Source of the DNA: Cyclobacteriaceae bacterium
GTDB taxonomy: Bacteria > Bacteroidota > Bacteroidia > Cytophagales > Cyclobacteriaceae
Length of the DNA stretch: 10,963 nt
Assembly (NCBI GenBank): GCA_026994125.1
Contig: JALWRJ010000545.1
Location: forward strand, 1-10,963
Direction of reading: 5' to 3'
Below are positions 483 to 10,963 of the stretch, one piece after another. The stretch's first letter is position 1; each line of letters begins with the position of its first letter. A model generated the notes under the pieces. The model was not told the origin of the DNA. It did not search any database and saw only the letters and a list, made by a program, of their open reading frames with translations. The translations under genes were made by a program, and so were the position numbers.

Positions 483-3400
483 ATGCGTCAACTTAGTACT
501 TCCAGGGGGATCGTCAACCGTATAAACTATTTTTTACCCCTGGCTTTGGTTTTGATGTTAGGAACTTGCAACGCTGCACGTGCGCAAGATTGGCTAACTG
601 CTTACAACAACTCAGTTGCACTTTTTAATGATGGCAACGATGCCAAAGCGCTTGCAGAAGCGCAACGAAGCGAGCAACTCTACAAAAAACAATATAACCC
701 CGACCACAACAACTACCGGGCTATCCTTAGGCAGTTGGCTGTAGTATGTTATAACCTAAACGAGCTTGACCAAGGTAAAAAATATGCTGTGCGAGAAGTA
801 ACCTCCTGGCGCTCTACCTTGCAGGTAGATGAGCTTTCGTATATGGATGCCCTGGATATTTTAGGGATTTTATATGTGGCTAACCAACAATACGATTCGG
901 CAATTATTGTGCTTCAGGAAGCCGTTAGGTTGGGCAGTTCAAAACCCGGTTATCCTGCCACCGAACTAGCCTTAAAACAATGCCATTTGGCCGATGCCTT
1001 GGCAGGAAGTGGCGATGCCAACCAGGCTTACATTCGCTTTTCCGAAGCCATGCCTGTGCTGGAGCAAAACGAAGAACTACCGGCCGAGTACCTATCGTTT
1101 TGTTATAGCTTTGGCAAAACTGCCCTTGCCGTAAAGCAATATAACACTGCCTCGCATTACCTGGCTACCATGTTGGAGTACTACCCTCCGGAATACAACC
1201 ACAACCCCGAAGTAGTAGATGCCCTGATAGCCTTAGGAACAGCCCATACCGAACTTACCCACTACTCCAAAGGCGAAACCTATTACACCACAGCCCTGGA
1301 ACGAATACCCAACCACCAGGATCCGCTTTACGTGTCAACCTCTAAGCTATTAGCCGATAACCTGGAACGCCAGGGGCGACACCAGGAAGCCGAAGCCATA
1401 CTTAAAAAAGCAGGAACCTCTATCGATAAAGCCTCAAACCAGGCCGCCCTTTTACTGGCCAACCAGGCGGCCGTACAACTTAACGGAGGCAATGCGGCCG
1501 GGGCAGCAGTACTACTCGATAGCGCCTTGGCCATTTTAAAAGCAAACCAACCCATAGATTACAACGCCCTAAGCAACGTTAGCTATAATGCGGCCATTAC
1601 CTACCGCACACTGGGTAACACTTCCCATGCCAAGAAACTACTATTAGAATCTATCGATGCCGCCAACCCGGCCTCTGCCGTACGCCAAAAAGCTTTAATA
1701 GCTCTGGCCAGGTTGCAGCAATCGGAAGGCAAAACAACCGAGGCCGAAACTACTATTGGCCAACTTAATCTAAGTAAAACGAGCGCATGGCGAGCTACCG
1801 AAAAAGGAGGCATTTACAACGAACTGGCCGGTTACTACCAAGCAGCCACTAAGTATGCGCAAGCAACCGATTATTATAAATTGGCCTTAAGTGCCGTGCC
1901 ACCGGCAACCAATGCCCAACTCTACACCAACATAGCCTTTAATTATGTTTCGCTGTTGCAGGCTTCGGGCAATTTTACCGAAGCCGAAAGGCTGCTGGCT
2001 GATATTGAAGCAACCTTAAAACAAGGCGACCCTGCCTTACAGTTTAAATTTTTGCAAAATACCGGCAACCTGTACCATGCCAAAGGCAATTTAACCATGG
2101 CCGAAACCCAATACAGGAAAGCACTGGCACTAGCTGCCAATACCTATGGCACTAGCAGTGTAGAGTATGCCGATATTATTTTAAGACAAGCCACTCTGGC
2201 CAAGGATAAAGGCGCCTACGAAAAAGCCGAGCCTTTGTTTAATCAGGCGCTACAAATGGTGGGCAACAAACCACTGCCGGCCGCTGCTATTCACAACAAT
2301 TTGGGCATTTTGTTTCAGCAAATGGGTAGGTTTACCGAAGCTCGCGAGCAATTCGAACAAGCCTTGGCCAACTACAAAGCAGCAGGAGCAGCCAACCAAT
2401 CGGACTACGTGCTTACCGAAGAAAACCTGGCCACTCTGTATAGCCTAATGGGTAATAATGCCAAAGCCTTGCAACTGCTGGCCGAAACCGTAAACTTAAA
2501 CAAACAGATCTACGGCACCCAAAGCCCCAATTATGCCATTTCGCTGCATAATTACGCTTCGCTGCTTCAAAAAGAAAAACAATACAACCAGGCCGAAGCC
2601 TTGTTTGAACAAGCTCTGGCCATTCAAAAAAGTAGCCTGGGAACTAACCATGCCTCGTATGCCAACACCTTGCACAACCTGGCCATTTTAGCCGAAGACC
2701 AAAAAAACTACACTAAGGCCGAACAACTTTTAAATGAAGTAATGGCCATTAGAGCCAACCTGTACGAGGAAAACCACCCGGCTTATACGGCAGGGCTTTA
2801 TAGCCGAGCCGTGCTTATGCAACAAATGAATAAATTTGAAGAAGCCAAAGCCGATTTCGACAAGGTTGCCTCCCTCTACCTGGGTCAAATTATTAAATAT
2901 TTTCCAAACTTGAGCGAACGTGAAAAAACGGCTTTCTACAAAAAAATTACTCCGGTATTTAACCGATACAAAGAGTTTTTACTGGAATACTACCTTCACT
3001 TTAAAAAGGATGAGCAGGTACTCGGGCAGTTGTACAATATACAAATTGCCACCAAAGCCATTTTATTAAACTCGGTAAACAAAACCCGCAATGCTATTTT
3101 AAATAGCGGTAACACAGCTCTAATAAATAATTTTAATGAATGGCAGGCCCTCAAAAAGCAACTGGCCGATTATTATAACTATTCAAAATCGAAACTACAA
3201 GCCGAAGGCATTAACCTGCAACAGGTAGAAGCCATGGTTAACAACCGCGAAAAAGAGCTTTCGGCTCAATCGGCCGAATTTGCCCAGGTGTTTAACCAAC
3301 AGCAAATAACCTGGCAACAGGTAAAAGACCAACTGCAACCCGGCCAAGCCGCCATAGAACTGGTGCGGATTAAACGCAACACCAACAACAACCAGGATTC

Positions 3401-4436
3401 GGTTACCTACATTGCCCTGGGTTTACAACCACAAGCCAACGCACCCACACTTAGCGTGTACCCCAAAGGCTTACAGTTAGAAAATAAGTTTTACCCGGGC
3501 TACAGCAATGCTATTTTATTTAAAAAGCAAGATAATTATAGCTATGCTGCTTTTTGGAAACCCTTAGAGCCCATGACAACCCAAGCAACTACAATTTACC
3601 TGTCGGCCGATGGAATTTTTAATAAAGTAAATGCCAACTCGTTGTATAACCCACAAACCAAACATTTTGTGGTAGAGCAGCTTAATGTTCGCTACATAAG
3701 CTCTTCGCGCGATTTGCTTGAAGAAAGCCAACACCAAATGGCCGTACAGGAAGAAGCCCTGGTAATAGCCAACCCTTACTACCCTAATAGTGTACAAGCA
3801 AATGCATCGGTTAAACGCAGCTATGATTTTGGTAAAATTTCGCAACTGCCCGGCACCCAAATTGAAGCCGAAAGTATTGCAAAGATGATGCAGCAAAAAG
3901 GATGGAAAACTGATGTAGAAACAGGTAAAAATGCTTCGAAACAAACCCTTTTACAATCGCAACCTCGGGTGTTACACATTGCCGCACATGGTTTTTTTAT
4001 GAACGAGCAGGAAGCAAGGGCTTCGTTTTTAACCAACCCTTTGTTTCGTTCGGGTTTACTACTGGCCGGAGCCGGCCAGGTATCCGAAACCAATAAAAAC
4101 AAAGGCATACTTACCGCTTACGAAGTAATGAATATGAACCTGGATAAAACCGAGCTGGTGGTGCTTTCGGCCTGCCAAACAGCCCTGGGCGAAGTGCAAA
4201 ATGGCGAAGGAGTGTATGGGTTGCAGCGAGCTTTTATGGTAGCAGGTGCCAATACCCTTATAATGAGCCTATGGAAAGTAGATGATACTGCCACACAAAA
4301 ACTAATGGAGGCTTTTTACACCTACTGGTTGCAAGGCACCGAAAAACACGAAGCCCTACGCAAAGCTCAAATCGAAATACAACAACAATATAAATTCCCT
4401 TACTACTGGGGTGCTTTTATTATGATTGGAATATGA
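483..4436 (+). CDS. Exported TPR-repeat protein with C-terminal CHAT caspase-like protease domain
   Basis: This is a 1317-residue protein. Residues 1-34 form a signal peptide (hydrophobic core around 17-28) with likely cleavage after ARA, leaving Q35 at the new N-terminus, so it acts in the periplasm or at the outer membrane. Residues about 40-805 are TPR repeats, roughly 19 by eye. From about 520 they follow a regular 42-residue spacing of the kinesin-light-chain type (for example 685-718 and 727-760). A helical linker follows (about 805-940). Residues about 945-1317 form a CHAT domain, a caspase/separase-clan cysteine protease fold. The dyad is present: His1169 in HIAAHG (1165-1170) and Cys1231 in LSACQTALGE, followed by the typical GEGVYGLQRAF and MSLWKVDD motifs. 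The domain is therefore probably active, though its substrate is unknown. The last base pairs overlap the next gene (ATGA), implying translational coupling. A lipoprotein reading at Cys29 (LGTC) is less likely because T at -1 is not canonical. The domain calls are firm; the role is inferred. Confidence 0.92.
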   Translation: MRQLSTSRGIVNRINYFLPLALVLMLGTCNAARAQDWLTAYNNSVALFNDGNDAKALAEAQRSEQLYKKQYNPDHNNYRAILRQLAVVCYNLNELDQGKKYAVREVTSWRSTLQVDELSYMDALDILGILYVANQQYDSAIIVLQEAVRLGSSKPGYPATELALKQCHLADALAGSGDANQAYIRFSEAMPVLEQNEELPAEYLSFCYSFGKTALAVKQYNTASHYLATMLEYYPPEYNHNPEVVDALIALGTAHTELTHYSKGETYYTTALERIPNHQDPLYVSTSKLLADNLERQGRHQEAEAILKKAGTSIDKASNQAALLLANQAAVQLNGGNAAGAAVLLDSALAILKANQPIDYNALSNVSYNAAITYRTLGNTSHAKKLLLESIDAANPASAVRQKALIALARLQQSEGKTTEAETTIGQLNLSKTSAWRATEKGGIYNELAGYYQAATKYAQATDYYKLALSAVPPATNAQLYTNIAFNYVSLLQASGNFTEAERLLADIEATLKQGDPALQFKFLQNTGNLYHAKGNLTMAETQYRKALALAANTYGTSSVEYADIILRQATLAKDKGAYEKAEPLFNQALQMVGNKPLPAAAIHNNLGILFQQMGRFTEAREQFEQALANYKAAGAANQSDYVLTEENLATLYSLMGNNAKALQLLAETVNLNKQIYGTQSPNYAISLHNYASLLQKEKQYNQAEALFEQALAIQKSSLGTNHASYANTLHNLAILAEDQKNYTKAEQLLNEVMAIRANLYEENHPAYTAGLYSRAVLMQQMNKFEEAKADFDKVASLYLGQIIKYFPNLSEREKTAFYKKITPVFNRYKEFLLEYYLHFKKDEQVLGQLYNIQIATKAILLNSVNKTRNAILNSGNTALINNFNEWQALKKQLADYYNYSKSKLQAEGINLQQVEAMVNNREKELSAQSAEFAQVFNQQQITWQQVKDQLQPGQAAIELVRIKRNTNNNQDSVTYIALGLQPQANAPTLSVYPKGLQLENKFYPGYSNAILFKKQDNYSYAAFWKPLEPMTTQATTIYLSADGIFNKVNANSLYNPQTKHFVVEQLNVRYISSSRDLLEESQHQMAVQEEALVIANPYYPNSVQANASVKRSYDFGKISQLPGTQIEAESIAKMMQQKGWKTDVETGKNASKQTLLQSQPRVLHIAAHGFFMNEQEARASFLTNPLFRSGLLLAGAGQVSETNKNKGILTAYEVMNMNLDKTELVVLSACQTALGEVQNGEGVYGLQRAFMVAGANTLIMSLWKVDDTATQKLMEAFYTYWLQGTEKHEALRKAQIEIQQQYKFPYYWGAFIMIGI

Positions 4437-6484
4437 AAACAAACACCTACTATATTGGGTTGCTAACTACTGTTTTGCTAATGGCCGGGCAAGCACTACA
4501 GGCGCAGGATAGTTTAAAAAACCAGGTGCCTGTGAAGGGCATTAACACCAAAGACTACGTAGAATATGCACCTACCATTAGTGCCGATGGTAAAACCATG
4601 ATTTTTCAATCCAATAAAAAAGATGGGGTTAAATACGATTTGTACGAATCCAAACTGGGCGATGACGGGGTGTGGTCGGAACCGGTGCCCTTAGACAAAA
4701 TAAATAATTTTGGAGCCGACAACGATTTAATTGGTGGCCCCAGCTTGAGTTTTGACGGCAACTTTTTGCTTTTCTTTGCCACTTATAATTCGGGCTTTGG
4801 TCGCGAAGATATCTACTACGCTACCCGCGAAAAAGACGGCTGGAGCGAACCCATCAACTTAGGAAACACCATTAATTCAGCCGGCTATGAGGCCTTCCCC
4901 TCCATTTCGGCCGATTTTAAAACCCTCTATTTTGTTAAGGAACGAAACCCTGACGATATCAAGAATAAAACCATTCGCAAAGCCATTAATTTTCCCTATG
5001 CTATTTACGAATCAAAACGAATAGGACCCAACGAATGGACAACCCCTAAGGAACTTTCGTCCACCATAAACCTGTACTCTTCTAAAGCGCCACGGATTAT
5101 GGCCGATAACAAAACCCTTATTTTCTCGGCCATCCGCTCAGAAGATAAGCTGGATTACGACCTGTTCCAATCGCAACGAAATATTTTAGGCGAATGGAAA
5201 CTGCCTGTGAACCTAAGCTATGTAAACACCCCGGCCAGCGACCAGCACTCCTGTATTTCGGCTTCGGGCGATATTATGTATTTTGTGTACGACAGCAAAG
5301 ATATTTATACCGTTGAAATACCCGAAAACCTGCGCCAGTTTGTAAACAATGTAGTTACAGGCACCATTACCGACCAGGATACCGGCAAAGGCGTTGAAAC
5401 CGAAATAATAATAACCGATGCCCGCACCACCCAAGAGGTAATGCGCTCTAAAAGTAGCCCGGCCGATGGCAAATATGCCCTGGTATTGGCGGCCGGCCGT
5501 AATTATAATGTAGAGTTTAAAGCTAAGGGCTACTCCAGTTTTGCCCGCTCGTTTGAACTTAAAAACACGAAAACCTATAAAGAATACAACCTCGATATCC
5601 AACTTTTTACTTCGGCCAAGCTTACCCTTACCGTTAGCGATATTGAACTTTTTGAAGCGCTGGAAGCCGAAGTAAAAGTAAAAAAACAAGGCGAGTCCGG
5701 GTTTTTGCAAGAACTAAAAACCGATAAACGCAACGGCAGAGTTGAGCTTGATTTACCTCTGGGTAGCGCATACGAAGTATTTATTAACGCCCCCAACTTT
5801 AAAGGGGCTACCTTTAAGCTCGATTTAACCGGACTCATTATTTACCGCCAATACGAAAAAGACATTGAACTGCAACCCGAAAAAGTAAGGGTTTTTATAG
5901 ATGTAGCCGATATTAAGAACAACAGCAAAATTCGGTCGAAAATAATTATTAGAAACAAAACCCGCGATGAAGTAATTGAAGTATATGGAAACGAATTTGT
6001 AGCCTTGCGGGCAGGCGACCGGTACGAAATAGAATCGACCAGCAAGGATGGCTACGCTTTTAACTCTACAACTATCGACCTAACCGAAGGAAAAGCAAAA
6101 GAAACCAAGGTAGGAATGAAACTTACCAAGCTCGAAAAAGATGCGAAGCTTACCTTAAAAAATATCAACTTCGAAACCAACTCTGTACAGCTCTCGGACG
6201 AATCGTTTGTAGAGCTACAACGGGTAGTTAAGCTTATGAAAGAAAACCCGGGATTACGCGTAGAAATAGCCGCCCATACCGATGATGTGGGGTCGGCCGC
6301 TTTTAACCTGGGGTTGTCGAACCGAAGAGCTCAAAGTGTAGTGGACTACCTGATTGACAACCAGATTTCGCCCGATAAATTTGTAGCGAAAGGTTATGGC
6401 GAAGAGGCGCCTTTGGTTCCTAACGATTCAGACGAAAACAGGGCTAAAAACCGAAGAGTAGAACTAAAAATTATTGATATGTAA
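4433..6484 (+). CDS. OmpA-family envelope protein with PD40 beta-propeller and CRD-like domains
   Basis: This 683-residue protein has a signal peptide at 1-24 (cleavage LQA, then Q25). Five PD40/WD40-like blades are visible at about 45-73, 101-131, 153-194, 218-247 and 271-296, with repeated cores such as SADGKTMIFQS and MADNKTLIFSA; the third has an insertion. Next is a carboxypeptidase-regulatory-like beta-sandwich (about 305-387, VTGTITDQDTGKGVE) and two more beta-rich segments (about 394-480 and 485-563) of less certain family. The C-terminus (about 572-683) is an OmpA-like peptidoglycan-binding domain. Asp617 (HTDD) and Arg632 (LSNRRA) sit 15 residues apart, as in the diaminopimelate-binding pair of known OmpA domains, so anchoring to the cell wall is likely. 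The layout recalls the type IX secretion protein PorE, but without its N-terminal TPR. The start is fixed by the 4-base overlap with the TPR-CHAT gene, which implies co-expression with it. Whether it has any secretion role is open. Confidence 0.9.
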   Translation: MKTNTYYIGLLTTVLLMAGQALQAQDSLKNQVPVKGINTKDYVEYAPTISADGKTMIFQSNKKDGVKYDLYESKLGDDGVWSEPVPLDKINNFGADNDLIGGPSLSFDGNFLLFFATYNSGFGREDIYYATREKDGWSEPINLGNTINSAGYEAFPSISADFKTLYFVKERNPDDIKNKTIRKAINFPYAIYESKRIGPNEWTTPKELSSTINLYSSKAPRIMADNKTLIFSAIRSEDKLDYDLFQSQRNILGEWKLPVNLSYVNTPASDQHSCISASGDIMYFVYDSKDIYTVEIPENLRQFVNNVVTGTITDQDTGKGVETEIIITDARTTQEVMRSKSSPADGKYALVLAAGRNYNVEFKAKGYSSFARSFELKNTKTYKEYNLDIQLFTSAKLTLTVSDIELFEALEAEVKVKKQGESGFLQELKTDKRNGRVELDLPLGSAYEVFINAPNFKGATFKLDLTGLIIYRQYEKDIELQPEKVRVFIDVADIKNNSKIRSKIIIRNKTRDEVIEVYGNEFVALRAGDRYEIESTSKDGYAFNSTTIDLTEGKAKETKVGMKLTKLEKDAKLTLKNINFETNSVQLSDESFVELQRVVKLMKENPGLRVEIAAHTDDVGSAAFNLGLSNRRAQSVVDYLIDNQISPDKFVAKGYGEEAPLVPNDSDENRAKNRRVELKIIDM

Positions 6485-6535
6485 CGAGGATGAGAAGCAT
6501 AACGACAAATTCCTCCGATTAAACTATTCAACTAT

Positions 6536-8656
6536 ATGAAGCGGCTCATTTTATTACTTTACATAGGACTGTATTTTCAAGGGCAGGCACAAACCAAGTA
6601 CAAAGATATTGTGCCAATGATTGAAGGTACAGCAGACGACTACGCTATGGAGGTGTTGCGTACCTTTTTAAATACAAATTTAGACCACCCGGCTGCTAAC
6701 TTGCGCATAGCCTCGTTTTACTTAAAAAAGGCTAACCAAACCGATGCCTTAATCGACTACGATAAACTACAAGCTTATGCCGAACAAGCCCGGCAAAAAC
6801 TGCTTAAAGCAAAATTGCTTATTACCGAAAAAGAAGTTAAAAAACATGCGGCATATTATGCCTGGATAGCCCAAAAACAACAAGCTGCCGAAGCCAATTT
6901 TGCCATGGTAAACCAGTACATGGCCGACCAAAAAACAGCCCTTAGCCAATTGCAACTAAGCCTGCCAAAAGTATATAACAGCTTTACACGCTCGGTAAAT
7001 GCCTATTCGCAAGCAGCTAAAAATTTCAACCGTATTTCAAGTAGCTACCCTTCGCTAAAAGAATTATACCTCCGCTACGATGATACCCTCGATAAATCGT
7101 TTACTCAACTTAAAAACGACTACGATTCCTGCCTTTACTTTTTTAGCAGGTACAAAAGCATGACCGATACCTTTGCCATAAAAGGCTACGACCAAACCCT
7201 TACCATAAAACCCATCAATGTATTTAGGTACGATGGCCTGGTTACACAAATTAACTTTTTAACTAACCAGGTAGAAGTATGGAATTACGCAGCCTGGGTG
7301 GATAGCGTACGAGCTGTTGTAAATTCGGACATTAAGGCATTACGGCAACTGCTACAAACCAACGAAGAGCGGCAAAACAAAGCCTTACAAACCTTGGAAA
7401 AAGGTGGTTTTACTAAAGATATTAACGTGGTTAAGGTAGATAAATCGTTGGTATTTAATTTACTGAGGTTCGATTACAACAACCCCATTGTGCCGCTTAT
7501 TAAATACAAGGAAGCCAAACAACAATTACTAATTGAAGAAGCCAACAGCACTTATTTCGACACCGCTCAAATAGACATAACACGTAAGCTGGTGTACTAC
7601 AACAAAATGGTGTATCAGTTACGCAATTCGGACAGCATAATCTCAGTATTTAAGGCTCGGTTTAACCCTAAACGATTAGCAAAGTACCAAGGGTATCTTA
7701 CCACGTATTATAAGGGCATTGACGAAGCCAGCCAATACATGGCCAACCAAAAAAACGAACTCAAAAAAGAATGGAATATATACGGAAAACTGTTGCAAGA
7801 AGGCGTTTCCTCCCTTAAACCAGTAGATTCCGTAGGTACATCGGTACGTTACCGAAAAGTAAACTATCCGCTGCAAGTTAAGCCAATGGATGAAACCAAG
7901 CTGGCCAGCGGCACACCCTTTACCACGCATATTTTAGCAGACCCCAATGGAGGTTACTATATTGCCGGGCAATACAAACCCAACAAAAAAATAAACAACA
8001 CCCAGCTATACCTTATTAAGTTAAGCCCCACGAAGCGAGTAAGTTGGTTTAAAAAATACGATATTCAGTTAGATAGTGCCGGAGCAGACAGCAACCAACA
8101 CCTGGCCGGCATTACCCTTACCAGTGAAGGCGTTGCCCTGCTTATTTATTCCTCCCATTTAACCAGCCAGGCTCAGGCCTCTACCGTGTTGCACGTACTG
8201 GCCGATGGCAGTACTAAAATGAGCACCCACTTAGCCACCTCTTTATTTCCTCGTGCTATTTTATACAACGATAAGCAAAATAGCTTTGCCCTGTGCTTTA
8301 ATGGAAACACACCACACCTGGAAAACTCAGCTAAAAATGAACTGGAATTAACTATCCTAAACAGTTTGGGCGAAGTGGGTTGGAGCTACTCCGAAAACAA
8401 TATTGGAGCCTTTGTAAGCCTCAACCAAATAAAATCTGGCTACTTAATTAGCCGCAATTCTACCACCGTAAGCTCTACCAAAGTATTGCTAACTAAAGTA
8501 AGCGATACAGGAGCTAAACTAAGCGACAAACTTATTGAAGTGCCCGGCAATAAACCCATAAGCCGTGTGTATAAACTAAACGACACCAGCATTCATTTAA
8601 TTGGCGACAACGCCTACCAAATGATTAATTCCAAACTTCAAAAAATATACCCTTAG
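6536..8656 (+). CDS. Exported protein of unknown function: helical region plus beta-propeller-like repeats
   Basis: This 706-residue protein has a signal peptide (residues 1-18, cleavage GQA, then Q19), so it is exported. Residues about 30-430 are predicted by eye to be mostly helical, starting with a TPR-like pair (30-70) and continuing as long charged helices rich in K, Q, Y and L. Residues about 455-706 are beta-rich repeats; the clearest is at about 463-508 (GGYYIAGQY ... LYLIKLSPTKRVSW), which has the form of blades in secreted beta-propeller proteins. Three or four weaker copies follow. No catalytic motif, heme site or lipobox is visible. It lies 51 bases after the OmpA-family gene, with no promoter or terminator in the gap, so it is probably the last gene of the same operon. 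No Shine-Dalgarno sequence precedes the ATG, and the signal peptide starting there supports the start. I do not recognise the family. Partner, adaptor or substrate of the CHAT protein are all possible. Confidence 0.85.
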   Translation: MKRLILLLYIGLYFQGQAQTKYKDIVPMIEGTADDYAMEVLRTFLNTNLDHPAANLRIASFYLKKANQTDALIDYDKLQAYAEQARQKLLKAKLLITEKEVKKHAAYYAWIAQKQQAAEANFAMVNQYMADQKTALSQLQLSLPKVYNSFTRSVNAYSQAAKNFNRISSSYPSLKELYLRYDDTLDKSFTQLKNDYDSCLYFFSRYKSMTDTFAIKGYDQTLTIKPINVFRYDGLVTQINFLTNQVEVWNYAAWVDSVRAVVNSDIKALRQLLQTNEERQNKALQTLEKGGFTKDINVVKVDKSLVFNLLRFDYNNPIVPLIKYKEAKQQLLIEEANSTYFDTAQIDITRKLVYYNKMVYQLRNSDSIISVFKARFNPKRLAKYQGYLTTYYKGIDEASQYMANQKNELKKEWNIYGKLLQEGVSSLKPVDSVGTSVRYRKVNYPLQVKPMDETKLASGTPFTTHILADPNGGYYIAGQYKPNKKINNTQLYLIKLSPTKRVSWFKKYDIQLDSAGADSNQHLAGITLTSEGVALLIYSSHLTSQAQASTVLHVLADGSTKMSTHLATSLFPRAILYNDKQNSFALCFNGNTPHLENSAKNELELTILNSLGEVGWSYSENNIGAFVSLNQIKSGYLISRNSTTVSSTKVLLTKVSDTGAKLSDKLIEVPGNKPISRVYKLNDTSIHLIGDNAYQMINSKLQKIYP

Positions 8657-8727: not shown

Positions 8728-9261
8728 CTACTCCCTAGGGTGCTCCATGTTTTCCATATTCATTTTTCCTTTGCCCTTGCCATGCATCTTTTCAAAATGA
8801 GCATTAAACCAATCGGGCACTTGCAATTCGTTATCATAAATAAAGGCCGCAATGGTAGCTAAATCTTCTTTACTGGTAGCTGGTTTTGGCATTACCTTAA
8901 ATCGCTTCACAGCCCCTTTCATTAGCGATGCCTCTTCGGTGGGGTTTTCACCCCAAGCTACTATAGCTGCCACAAAGTCCTCTTTAGTGGTATATTTTTG
9001 CGAATAAAACCACTTGACTGCCTGCATAGGTGGGGCAATCAGGGCATCGTGGGTGGGTGCTCCGCCATGGCAAATAAGGCATTGGTTTTTTAATAACATA
9101 TAGTTTTCCGATACGGTATCTATGGCTATGGTAGCCGGTTTAACAATTGCTTCCTGTGGTTGTAGGCTTTCTTTACTTTCATTAGTTTCGGTAGCTTGGT
9201 TTGTATTGGTACATGCGGCCAACAAGCCCACCGCCATAAAAAATAAAATTGGCTTTTTCAT
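8728..9261 (-). CDS. Lipoprotein c-type cytochrome with Met/His-rich tail
   Basis: This 177-residue protein opens with a lipoprotein signal peptide: a hydrophobic core and the lipobox LAAC, with Cys17 as lipidation site. A low-complexity Thr/Asn/Glu/Gln linker follows (18-40). The heme site is CLICH at 61-65, and Met124 in VMPKPA is the likely sixth iron ligand, followed by a helix typical of class I cytochrome c (KEDLATIAAFIYD). It should be membrane-anchored, most likely in the periplasm, and carry electrons; partner enzymes are not visible here. The last 25 residues are rich in Met, His and Lys (HFEKMHGKGKGKMNMENMEHPRE), which is not part of the usual fold. No Shine-Dalgarno sequence precedes the ATG, but a good -7 promoter element lies 25 bases upstream. 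The gene is convergent with the CHAT operon and divergent from FTCD, so it is probably transcribed alone. Confidence 0.88.
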   Translation of the reverse strand: MKKPILFFMAVGLLAACTNTNQATETNESKESLQPQEAIVKPATIAIDTVSENYMLLKNQCLICHGGAPTHDALIAPPMQAVKWFYSQKYTTKEDFVAAIVAWGENPTEEASLMKGAVKRFKVMPKPATSKEDLATIAAFIYDNELQVPDWFNAHFEKMHGKGKGKMNMENMEHPRE

Positions 9262-9294: not shown

Positions 9295-9387
9295 CGCCAA
9301 GCCGGGTATTAAAAAAAAGAATTGTTGCCCTTCATAAAGCGGGTGGATTTACATGAGTTAATGTGCGTATCATCGGGTTGAATTTTC

Positions 9388-9395
9388 TATTTTTG
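9388..9395 (+). promoter_or_regulatory. Candidate -7 promoter element of the FTCD gene
   Basis: TATTTTTG matches TAnnTTTG and ends 21 bases before the ATG at 9417. The expected -33 TTG is not obvious at the right distance. The sequence around it is T-rich, so a chance match is possible. Confidence 0.4.
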
Positions 9396-9416
9396 CCTTT
9401 CTTTAACATATATAAA

Positions 9417-10963
9417 ATGAGCAAGCCATTAATTGAGTGTGTTCCTAATATTAGCGAGGGACGTGACAAGCAAAAAATTAAAGCCATTACTGATGTGGTT
9501 GAAACCGTAGAAGGGGTTAAACTGTTGGATGTAGATCCGGGCAAAGCCACTAACCGCACCGTTATTACGTTTGTGGGCGAGCCCGAACCAGTTATTGAAG
9601 CAGCCTTTTTGGTAATTAAAAAAGCAAGCGAGCTTATAGATATGAGCAAACATACCGGAGAACACCCCCGTTTTGGAGCTACCGATGTATGCCCACTGGT
9701 ACCCATTGCCAACATTAGCATGGACGAAACCGTAAGCTATGCCCATAAGCTGGGCAAACGGGTAGGCGAAGAGCTGGGCATACCCGGTTATTTTTATGAA
9801 AACGCTGCCACCAGCGAAGAAAGACGAAACCTGGCCAATTGCCGGGCAGGAGAGTACGAAGGGCTAGCCGATAAGCTAACCAACCCCCATTGGAAACCCG
9901 ATTTTGGCCCGGCTGCCTTTGATAAAGCTAAAACTTCCGGAGCCACCGCCATAAGTGCCCGCGATTTTTTAGTGGCCTACAACATCAACTTAAATACTAC
10001 CTCATCGCGCAGAGCCAACGCCATTGCTTTTGATATACGCGAACGTGGTCGCGTTAAGCGGGAAGGAAATTCGCTTACCGGAAAAATTGTAAAAGATGAA
10101 AAAGGCAACCCTGTAAATATTCCGGGTACTTTAAAAGCCGTAAAAGGCATTGGTTGGTATATCGAGGAATACGGCATAGCTCAGCTTTCGTTAAACCTGA
10201 CCAATATTAGTATTACACCTATGCACATTGCTTTTGATGAGGCCGTAGATAAAGCGCAAAAAAGAGGCATTCGGGTAACAGGCTCCGAACTGGTTGGGCT
10301 GGTACCCCTGCAAGCCATGCTCGATGCCGGAAAGTATTTTTTACGTAAACAACAACGCTCGGTTGGGGTTTCGGAGCAGGAACTGATAAAAATTGCCATT
10401 AAATCGTTAGGCCTTGACGACCTAAAACCTTTTAACCCCCGAGAGCGCATTATTGAGTACTTAATAGCCGATAAAGCGCCTAAGCTTATTGATATGAGCC
10501 TGACCGAATTTGCAAATGAAACCGCTTCGGAATCCCCAGCTCCCGGTGGAGGTTCTATTTCGGCCTATGTAGGTGCGTTAGGAGTATCGTTGGGCACGAT
10601 GGTAGCTAACTTATCATCGCATAAACGGGGATGGGACAACCGCTGGGAAGAGTTTTCGGACTGGGCCGAAAAAGGGATGGCGTACCAAAAACAATTGTTA
10701 GCACTGGTAGATGAAGATACCAATGCCTTTAACAAAATTATGGATGCCTTTGGCTTACCCAAAAATAGCGATGATGAAAAAACTGCTCGTAAACAGGCTA
10801 TTCAAGAGGCTACCCTCTATGCCACCCGGGTTCCTTTACAGGTGGTAGAAGTGTGCTACCAATCTATGGAAGTAATGAAAGCCATGGCCGAAACCGGTAA
10901 CCCTAACTCCGTAACCGATGCCGGAGTGGGTGCCCTGTGTGCACGTACTGCCGTGCGTGGCGC
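9417..10963 (+). CDS. ftcD: Bifunctional glutamate formimidoyltransferase / formimidoyl-THF cyclodeaminase (3'-truncated by window)
   Basis: The frame is open from ATG 9417 to the window edge, giving 515 codons plus two bases. The enzyme moves the formimino group of formiminoglutamate to tetrahydrofolate, then releases ammonia to give 5,10-methenyl-THF: the last step of one histidine-degradation route, in the cytoplasm. The formiminotransferase domain (about 1-330) starts with the family motif ECVPNISEGRD and has GEHPRFGATDVCP, in which His83 matches the catalytic His82 of pig FTCD. The cyclodeaminase domain (about 358 on) has ESPAPGGGS (372-380), the acidic motif VDEDTNAFN (431-439) that contains the expected catalytic Asp region, and SVTDAGVGALCARTAVRG at the edge. 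Compared with the roughly 541-residue mammalian enzyme or slightly longer bacterial fusions, about 50 residues are missing, because of the window end and not a mutation. No Shine-Dalgarno sequence is seen. Other hut genes are not in the window but could follow downstream. Confidence 0.95.
   Translation, partial: MSKPLIECVPNISEGRDKQKIKAITDVVETVEGVKLLDVDPGKATNRTVITFVGEPEPVIEAAFLVIKKASELIDMSKHTGEHPRFGATDVCPLVPIANISMDETVSYAHKLGKRVGEELGIPGYFYENAATSEERRNLANCRAGEYEGLADKLTNPHWKPDFGPAAFDKAKTSGATAISARDFLVAYNINLNTTSSRRANAIAFDIRERGRVKREGNSLTGKIVKDEKGNPVNIPGTLKAVKGIGWYIEEYGIAQLSLNLTNISITPMHIAFDEAVDKAQKRGIRVTGSELVGLVPLQAMLDAGKYFLRKQQRSVGVSEQELIKIAIKSLGLDDLKPFNPRERIIEYLIADKAPKLIDMSLTEFANETASESPAPGGGSISAYVGALGVSLGTMVANLSSHKRGWDNRWEEFSDWAEKGMAYQKQLLALVDEDTNAFNKIMDAFGLPKNSDDEKTARKQAIQEATLYATRVPLQVVEVCYQSMEVMKAMAETGNPNSVTDAGVGALCARTAVRG

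Follow-up and report, generated by a model that had tools for sequence, protein, structure and literature searches.

Comparison of gene order across the loci examined showed that two adjacent genes, here called B and C, usually stay linked while the enzyme gene beside them is exchanged. The genes were studied in a 10,963-nucleotide stretch of DNA (the window), which is contig C545 (JALWRJ010000545.1) of a 2.9 Mb draft genome of a Cyclobacteriaceae bacterium (GCA_026994125.1). In the window, B encodes a PD40-CarboxypepD_reg-OmpA protein, C a protein modelled as a helical half followed by a beta-propeller, and the neighbouring gene A a TPR-CHAT protein. Judged by gene order, A-B-C recurs in Cytophagales as a three-gene unit. 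The original prediction, made from this stretch alone, had described an envelope operon built around the CHAT protease; B and C proved to be the constant part, with a Peptidase_C14 protease or a SpoIIE phosphatase in the place of A elsewhere. As B-C is common to the three layouts, CHAT was rejected as the core of the unit.

B-C gene pairs and their exchanged neighbour

The neighbour count covered the window and loci L036-L055 and L076-L222 (168 in all); L001-L035, which have short flanks, and L056-L075, which hold shorter C paralogues and the other CHAT loci of the window's genome, were left out. C genes were kept if their products had at least 640 amino acids and scored at least 120 bits, and repeats were removed by the last 200 residues, which left 87 distinct long C genes. 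B lay directly beside C in 73 of the 87. Seventy-two of these pairs were found by script and the pair of L040 by hand, its B, hidden by the overlap filter, being read in the same locus as L117. Seven pairs lay too near a contig end, including L119 (500 bases before B, with no A found in them), and 66 remained testable. The gene next to these 66 pairs encoded a TPR-CHAT protein in 37 loci, a TPR-Peptidase_C14 protein in 10, a propeller-SpoIIE phosphatase in 11 and none of these in eight. These counts include related genomes and come from uneven sampling. CHAT neighbours were typed by motif, C14 by motif and profile, and SpoIIE by profile. Pfam confirmed CHAT in the window, L182, L210, L214 and L215, C14 in L129, L130, L148 and L185, and SpoIIE in L144, L151, L152 and L199 (the last a locus without B). 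The 37 CHAT loci comprised 33 with the order A-B-C (including the window; A was cut or in pieces in L104, L111 and L126), two with A-B-C and a convergent SpoIIE gene (L214, L215), one B-C-A (L086) and one divergent arrangement (L210). Recurrence of the A-B-C order beyond chance, for which the original prediction had proposed a search, was upheld by these 33 of 66 testable loci and the two with the convergent phosphatase gene. As a control, the motifs were sought in 479 open reading frames (ORFs) of at least 300 amino acids from 72 loci; 36 CHAT-motif and 10 C14-motif genes were recognised, and all 46 directly flanked B-C. L210 has another CHAT-like ORF that is truncated where the locus ends; it fell outside the motif count.

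The spacing of the genes was tight in the CHAT trios (31 A-B-C loci plus L214 and L215), with median gaps, taken from the first start codons, of 12 bases between A and B and 1 base between B and C. The gaps between C and the C14 gene ranged from -1 to 217 bases, and those between C and the SpoIIE gene from -13 to 435 bases. In five Flammeovirga and one Microscillaceae metagenome-assembled genome (MAG), B-C occurred without CHAT and a TPR-Peptidase_C14 gene followed C; the six C14 proteins had a signal-peptide-like start, and the SGHG and DAC(F/Y)SG motifs were intact in all of them. A Reg_prop-Y_Y_Y-SpoIIE phosphatase gene followed C in two Bacteroidales MAGs and one Draconibacterium MAG. Among culturable species, Marivirga sericea, Reichenbachiella faecimaris and Marinoscillum furvescens have the A-B-C trio, and Flammeovirga pacifica has the C14 version. 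Two further arrangements were observed. L214 (10105-13440) and L215 (9975-13163) carried CHAT-B-C plus a SpoIIE-type gene, recognised by profile, directly after C, both output types standing together. In L148 (16584-19451) and L179 (13043-15904), both from Flammeovirgaceae, a WD40-Peptidase_C14 gene followed the TPR-C14 gene of the B-C unit.

In the window's order, 31 of 291 genomes had a C match at E 1e-30, a figure that counts shorter and solitary C as well. In the order of G963, which includes the genomes with the contigs of L143, L144 and L152, matches were found in 24 of 247. A phylum-wide draw yielded a long C in one of 395 genomes, the window's own, with three weaker matches to a shorter paralogue. 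A class-wide draw with the Bacteroidales profile gave three matches in 395, one of them outside the family. These draws show that few members of the phylum as a whole have the B-C pair.

Changes of partner in the trees

The tree of B and C combined was built from 43 of the 66 testable pairs, selected to thin near-copies, and its branches carry support from the Shimodaira-Hasegawa-like approximate likelihood ratio test (SH-aLRT) only. On this tree, the partner labels needed 8 changes, compared with a mean of 21.7 for shuffled labels. The strongly supported branches forced at least four changes for CHAT, two for C14 and two for SpoIIE, counting gains and losses to 'none'. L086 and L208 formed long branches. 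In the tree of B, the CHAT loci of f74 grouped with the Microscillaceae C14 locus (support 96/95), apart from the CHAT loci of the window's family. In the CHAT domain tree, from which the CHATs of L210, L214 and L215 were left out, the f74 loci fell in the clade of a CHAT class of 1400 amino acids (97/98, then 98/88) and not with the operon CHATs of the family. Because its domain falls in that clade, the f74 TPR-CHAT looks separately recruited.

Linkage of A, B and C in the Cyclobacteriaceae

The co-occurrence check was run in the 98 genomes of the window's family, and the association was strong. A long C was present in 16 genomes (G000, G006, G007, G008, G023, G033, G052, G054, G055, G059, G061, G069, G077, G088, G089 and G092; that of G089 is a fragment at a contig edge). 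A was scored with a profile built from 11 operon A proteins, which it therefore favours, on six candidates per genome with the best matches listed. A match above 1000 bits was found in 15 of the 16 genomes with long C (all except G052) versus four of the 82 without. A, B and C were adjacent in eleven of these 15, and in the other four the genes lay at the ends of contigs, which fits an operon split between contigs. In the four genomes with such an A and no C (G012, G025, G071 and G091), each A stood beside a divergent B-like pair. The co-occurrence of A and long C gave a Fisher p of 3e-13, or 9e-17 if only A genes with C beside them were counted, with shared descent uncorrected in both values.

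CHAT orthologues occurring regularly without the two partners had been named beforehand as evidence against the operon. Such separation was found only in part: A occurred with B but without C in six loci. These loci (L134, L135, L137-L140) represent a second operon type, consisting of a TPR-CHAT gene (1238-1305 amino acids) and B, and both types are carried by Shiella (L116/L135) and Chryseotalea (L107/L137). In L076-L079, A-like CHAT genes (1350-1384 amino acids) face a divergent B-like pair of about 700 and 230 amino acids, and L127 has an extra TPR-CHAT-like gene (3067-5886, 939 amino acids) in tandem before A-B. CHAT was present in 86 of the 98 family genomes, in 1 to at least 21 copies each; G022 had at least 21 matches (21 scored of 71 candidates), many of them on contig C190. 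The TPR-CHAT genes of L092 (4062-8282), L093 (4293-8498) and L094 (4391-8659), members of the 1400-amino-acid class with signal-peptide-like starts, follow a methylmalonyl-CoA mutase gene (Pfam) and have no B or C nearby. The assignment of all TPR-CHAT genes to one system was rejected, since CHAT is frequent in the family and the four 1400-amino-acid class genes examined (L092-L095) lack an adjacent B or C.

Domain composition of the three proteins

The three-gene layout of the original prediction was reproduced exactly, including the 4-base overlap of A and B and the 51-base gap between B and C (Table 1). Each of the three proteins starts like a signal peptide, and export is predicted from these N-termini. 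With four rows cut by contig ends skipped, all 11 A, all 11 B and all 15 C proteins, those of the window among them, had a hydrophobic N-terminal stretch. By B, the closest named relatives were Cyclobacteriaceae MAGs, in a scan that may omit records of the window's own genome.

Table 1. Features of genes A, B and C in the window
Feature	Coordinates	Strand	Evidence
Gene A, TPR-CHAT, signal-peptide-like start, 1317 amino acids	483..4436	+	ORF; Pfam TPR and CHAT; AlphaFold2 (AF2) model
Signal-peptide-like N-terminus of A, residues 1-34, ARA end before QDW	483..584	+	Sequence
TPR solenoid of A, about residues 36-809	588..2909	+	Pfam; helix pairs in model (from residue 118)
CHAT domain of A, residues 1021-1316	3543..4430	+	PF12770, E 8e-69
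Predicted catalytic His1169 of A (HIAAHG)	3987..3989	+	H in 35/35 rows
Predicted catalytic Cys1231 of A (LSACQT)	4173..4175	+	C in 35/35 rows
Gene B, PD40-CarboxypepD_reg-OmpA, signal-peptide-like start, 683 amino acids	4433..6484	+	ORF; Pfam
Signal-peptide-like N-terminus of B, residues 1-24	4433..4504	+	Sequence
PD40 (WD40-like) propeller region of B, about residues 44-300	4562..5332	+	PF07676, two stretches; end estimated
CarboxypepD_reg domain of B, residues 308-382	5354..5578	+	PF13620, E 2e-9
OmpA peptidoglycan-binding domain of B, residues 580-674	6170..6454	+	PF00691, E 1e-20; profile matches solved OmpA/Pal domains
Asp617 of B, diaminopimelate-binding Asp position	6281..6283	+	D in 43/43 B rows
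Arg632 of B, diaminopimelate-binding Arg position	6326..6328	+	R in 43/43 B rows
Gene C, signal-peptide-like start, modelled helical and beta-propeller, 706 amino acids, no known family	6536..8656	+	ORF; model
Signal-peptide-like N-terminus of C, residues 1-18	6536..6589	+	Sequence
Helical half of C, residues 22-426	6599..7813	+	Model
C-terminal beta-propeller of C, residues 432-706	7829..8653	+	Model; propeller fold matches

The CHAT domain of A scored 232.7 bits with PF12770 (curated cut-off 24 bits) and was accompanied by many TPR matches in Pfam. The earlier description of A as an exported TPR-CHAT protein agreed with these matches and with its signal-peptide-like start, judged by eye. The dyad His1169/Cys1231 named there was confirmed in the sequence of A, and both residues were kept in all 35 aligned A proteins longer than 1200 amino acids, six of which come from A-B loci without C. 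From these features, A is predicted to be an exported caspase-like protease and to work in the periplasm. The AF2 model of residues 118-1317 had a mean predicted local distance difference test score (pLDDT) of 85.9. Low model confidence round the dyad leaves its geometry open, and A might on that account be a non-catalytic scaffold in which the caspase fold serves as a binding site. The complete conservation of the dyad and the intact motifs of the alternative C14 partner argue against such a role, which we regard as extremely improbable.

In B, Pfam found the PD40 (two stretches) and OmpA domains of the original prediction and additionally a CarboxypepD_reg domain that had gone unmentioned. 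The OmpA domain scored 73.9 bits with PF00691, against a cut-off of 27.2. Its conserved Asp and Arg are 15 residues apart, the same spacing as that of D271 and R286 of OmpA, which are reported to bind diaminopimelate in Acinetobacter baumannii (PMC6572160). B keeps the peptidoglycan-binding residues, and wall binding is predicted. The protein scored 205.3 bits with NF053607 (CHU_0125 family, cut-off 620) and 165.9 bits with NF052230 (PorE type IX secretion family, cut-off 600), and the B proteins of L130, L151 and L214 were also under the CHU_0125 cut-off. Filing B as PorE or CHU_0125 was rejected on these scores. The same scores, though under the cut-offs, favour a role in constitutive maintenance, in which B and C would form a scaffold between wall and outer membrane (compare PorE in type IX secretion and CHU_0125 in outer-membrane integrity) and the protease would be a standing processing or quality-control enzyme; deletion of chu_0125 is reported to impair outer-membrane integrity (PMC5891637). 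Such a scaffold offers no obvious reason for the exchange of the neighbour with a signalling-type phosphatase, and the TPR reported for CHU_0125 was not found in B by Pfam. We rate it as somewhat unlikely.

The label 'helical-propeller' given earlier to C was borne out by its structure model (mean pLDDT 89; helices in residues 22-426, strands in residues 432-706) and by fold searches with the second half, in which the best matches were propellers. The fold matches covered mainly the propeller and were uninformative on function. C gave no Pfam match better than E 0.086, and NCBIfam and PADLOC had nothing for it at 0.1. Kinship of C with a solved protein was rejected, no sequence match being better than E 0.027. 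Of 7994 candidates scored from protein databases, 70 were C relatives at E 1e-5; all of them lacked Pfam domains, and the names given were 'hypothetical' or TPR. The stretch R231-W254 is strongly conserved: G234, F241, W249, W254 and also D313 are present in 43 of 43 sequences, and R231 and L242 in 42. The propeller is more variable than this helical core (R231-W254, D313). Shorter or solitary C paralogues without B were found in L052-L071 and L186-L194, mostly of 590-650 and some of 667-760 amino acids. Their surroundings looked like housekeeping genes, with a histidine phosphatase in L188 and DUF7832 in L063 (both Pfam), and a Sir2-like gene by eye.

Downstream of C, a lipoprotein-like ORF (8728-9261, minus strand) with one CxxCH motif and weak cytochrome-c matches is convergent to the operon. 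It is followed by a glutamate formimidoyltransferase fused to a formiminotransferase-cyclodeaminase domain (9363-10963), which runs off the window end. Among the five window genes, no match to Cas7-11, Csx30, another Cas protein or gasdermin was found in Pfam or NCBIfam. In PADLOC 2023, A matched a generic TPR model and B matched OmpA models of MotB/ZorB type, and there were no other matches. These searches bear on a periplasmic anti-phage or self-killing role, in which B-C would detect an adsorbing phage or an attack on the wall and death would be triggered by the caspase-like protease, as in the cytoplasmic gasdermin-CHAT and Craspase systems. Clan CD proteases are generally known as common effectors in such systems, and exchangeable effectors are typical of them. 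We nevertheless consider this role unlikely, given the missing gasdermin and Cas matches, the generic nature of the PADLOC matches, the position of the family's CHAT-B-C loci mostly in one region of the trees, and flanking genes that, among those listed, are ordinary by eye.

Proposed function

We put at about even the chance that B and C form a peptidoglycan-attached sensing pair controlling a swappable output enzyme, here the TPR-CHAT protease predicted to be periplasmic. The input is more plausibly placed in B-C, the constant part, and the output in the part that is exchanged, since the main thing that two caspase-type families and a phosphatase share is the modification of other proteins. 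From the layout we infer the remaining steps, namely what is sensed, how the proteins touch, how the enzyme is activated and what it acts on. The OmpA domain would anchor B to the cell wall, with the PD40 propeller presented, and C would bind B. The propeller or the helical half of C may read the state of the envelope, for which wall damage, a misplaced or unfolded protein, or a ligand are candidates. This change would be passed to the TPR solenoid of A, which might keep the CHAT site shut until then, as has been proposed for Csx29 (PMC10028731, PMC9729208). Once active, A would cleave a single envelope protein or a few of them, perhaps including C or B itself. With SpoIIE as the output, the same input would be passed across the inner membrane as dephosphorylation.

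Several observations weigh against this reading. B was not adjacent in 14 of the 87 long C genes, and none of the three enzyme types adjoined eight of the 66 B-C pairs. In L148 and L179, the motif control missed a WD40-C14 gene separated from B-C by the neighbour gene. The gap after C exceeded 150 bases in three of the 11 SpoIIE loci, where co-transcription is unsure, and the SpoIIE gene is convergent in L214 and L215. In a scan of named genomes with B, 26 of 79 loci held a B-like gene that is more distant and has no A and no C in the stretch fetched around it, which suggests that B-like proteins also act without these partners, and the six A-B loci do without C. The model of A was weak near the dyad, with means over 10-residue blocks of 62 at His and 57 at Cys. 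Promoter and terminator patterns of the operon in the window were no more than expected by chance. The signal peptides were read by eye from the sequence, as a hydrophobic stretch usually followed by a small-residue site before Gln. Adjacency of the genes argues for a shared role but does not amount to evidence of a complex. Neutral synteny, in which three envelope genes share a promoter and not a pathway, would fit both the eight pairs without such an enzyme and the general types to which all these exported-looking proteins belong. We judge it very unlikely, as two clan CD families occupy the same place, every motif-recognised gene directly flanked B-C, and B-C-A and divergent layouts occur too.

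Bacterial caspase-type proteases are best known as cytoplasmic immunity effectors or division regulators. A more tentative extension of the sensing-pair proposal, held with clearly less than even confidence, is that B-C may be a general wall-mounted receptor pair of Bacteroidota, whose output slot is taken either by one of two caspase-type families acting in the periplasm or by a SpoIIE-type phosphatase that signals to the cell interior; this would be an envelope-damage pathway with a caspase executioner outside the cytoplasm. A unit that sets such a protease outside the cytoplasm, next to a protein with a peptidoglycan-binding domain, and that in relatives has another caspase family or a phosphatase there, would give bacteria a caspase-based envelope response and identify B and C as its input proteins. 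The link between OmpA and metacaspase operons reported without explanation (PMC3501461) also becomes testable in named isolates, e.g., Marivirga, Reichenbachiella and Flammeovirga.

Comparison with known systems

No published description of a unit of TPR-CHAT, OmpA/PD40 and helical-propeller proteins was found by title or abstract in the open-access literature, in agreement with the earlier view that the system could not be named from known families. The TPR-CHAT architecture of A is common to Csx29 of Craspase (type III-E CRISPR). A differs from it by its signal-peptide-like start and its PD40-OmpA and helical-propeller partners, and the window has no Cas7-11 (gRAMP) or Csx30 match. The bacterial gasdermin-protease system differs likewise: no window gene matched gasdermin, and C is modelled as helical plus propeller instead. 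Separase, the eukaryotic cohesin protease, aligned with 14% identity. PorE carries TPR in the same chain as its OmpA domain. It is described as a periplasmic, outer-membrane-associated lipoprotein and was solved with a peptidoglycan fragment (PMC7192894). CHU_0125 of Cytophaga hutchinsonii is reported to combine PD40, OmpA and TPR and to be required for the integrity of the outer membrane (PMC5891637). Both share the OmpA domain with B, and CHU_0125 shares PD40 too; B has no TPR, whereas CHU_0125 is reported to carry it in the same chain.

HetF of Anabaena resembles A as a CHAT and TPR protein acting at the envelope, where it is reported to function in septal peptidoglycan synthesis and to interact with FtsI (PMC8406250). 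Unlike A, it is described as a membrane protein with one predicted transmembrane segment, a CHAT part in residues 1-555 and a role with the divisome, and the accessible part of that report describes no partner of the B or C type (PMC8406250). Closest to the C14 version of the unit is a 2012 metacaspase survey, in which C14 proteases were linked to OmpA proteins. In its accessible text, no C-type partner or enzyme exchange is named, and the word CHAT is absent from the main text (PMC3501461). Since that survey reported the OmpA domain in 14 metacaspase operons, with 217 operons holding metacaspases, the C14-OmpA link seen here is not new (PMC3501461).

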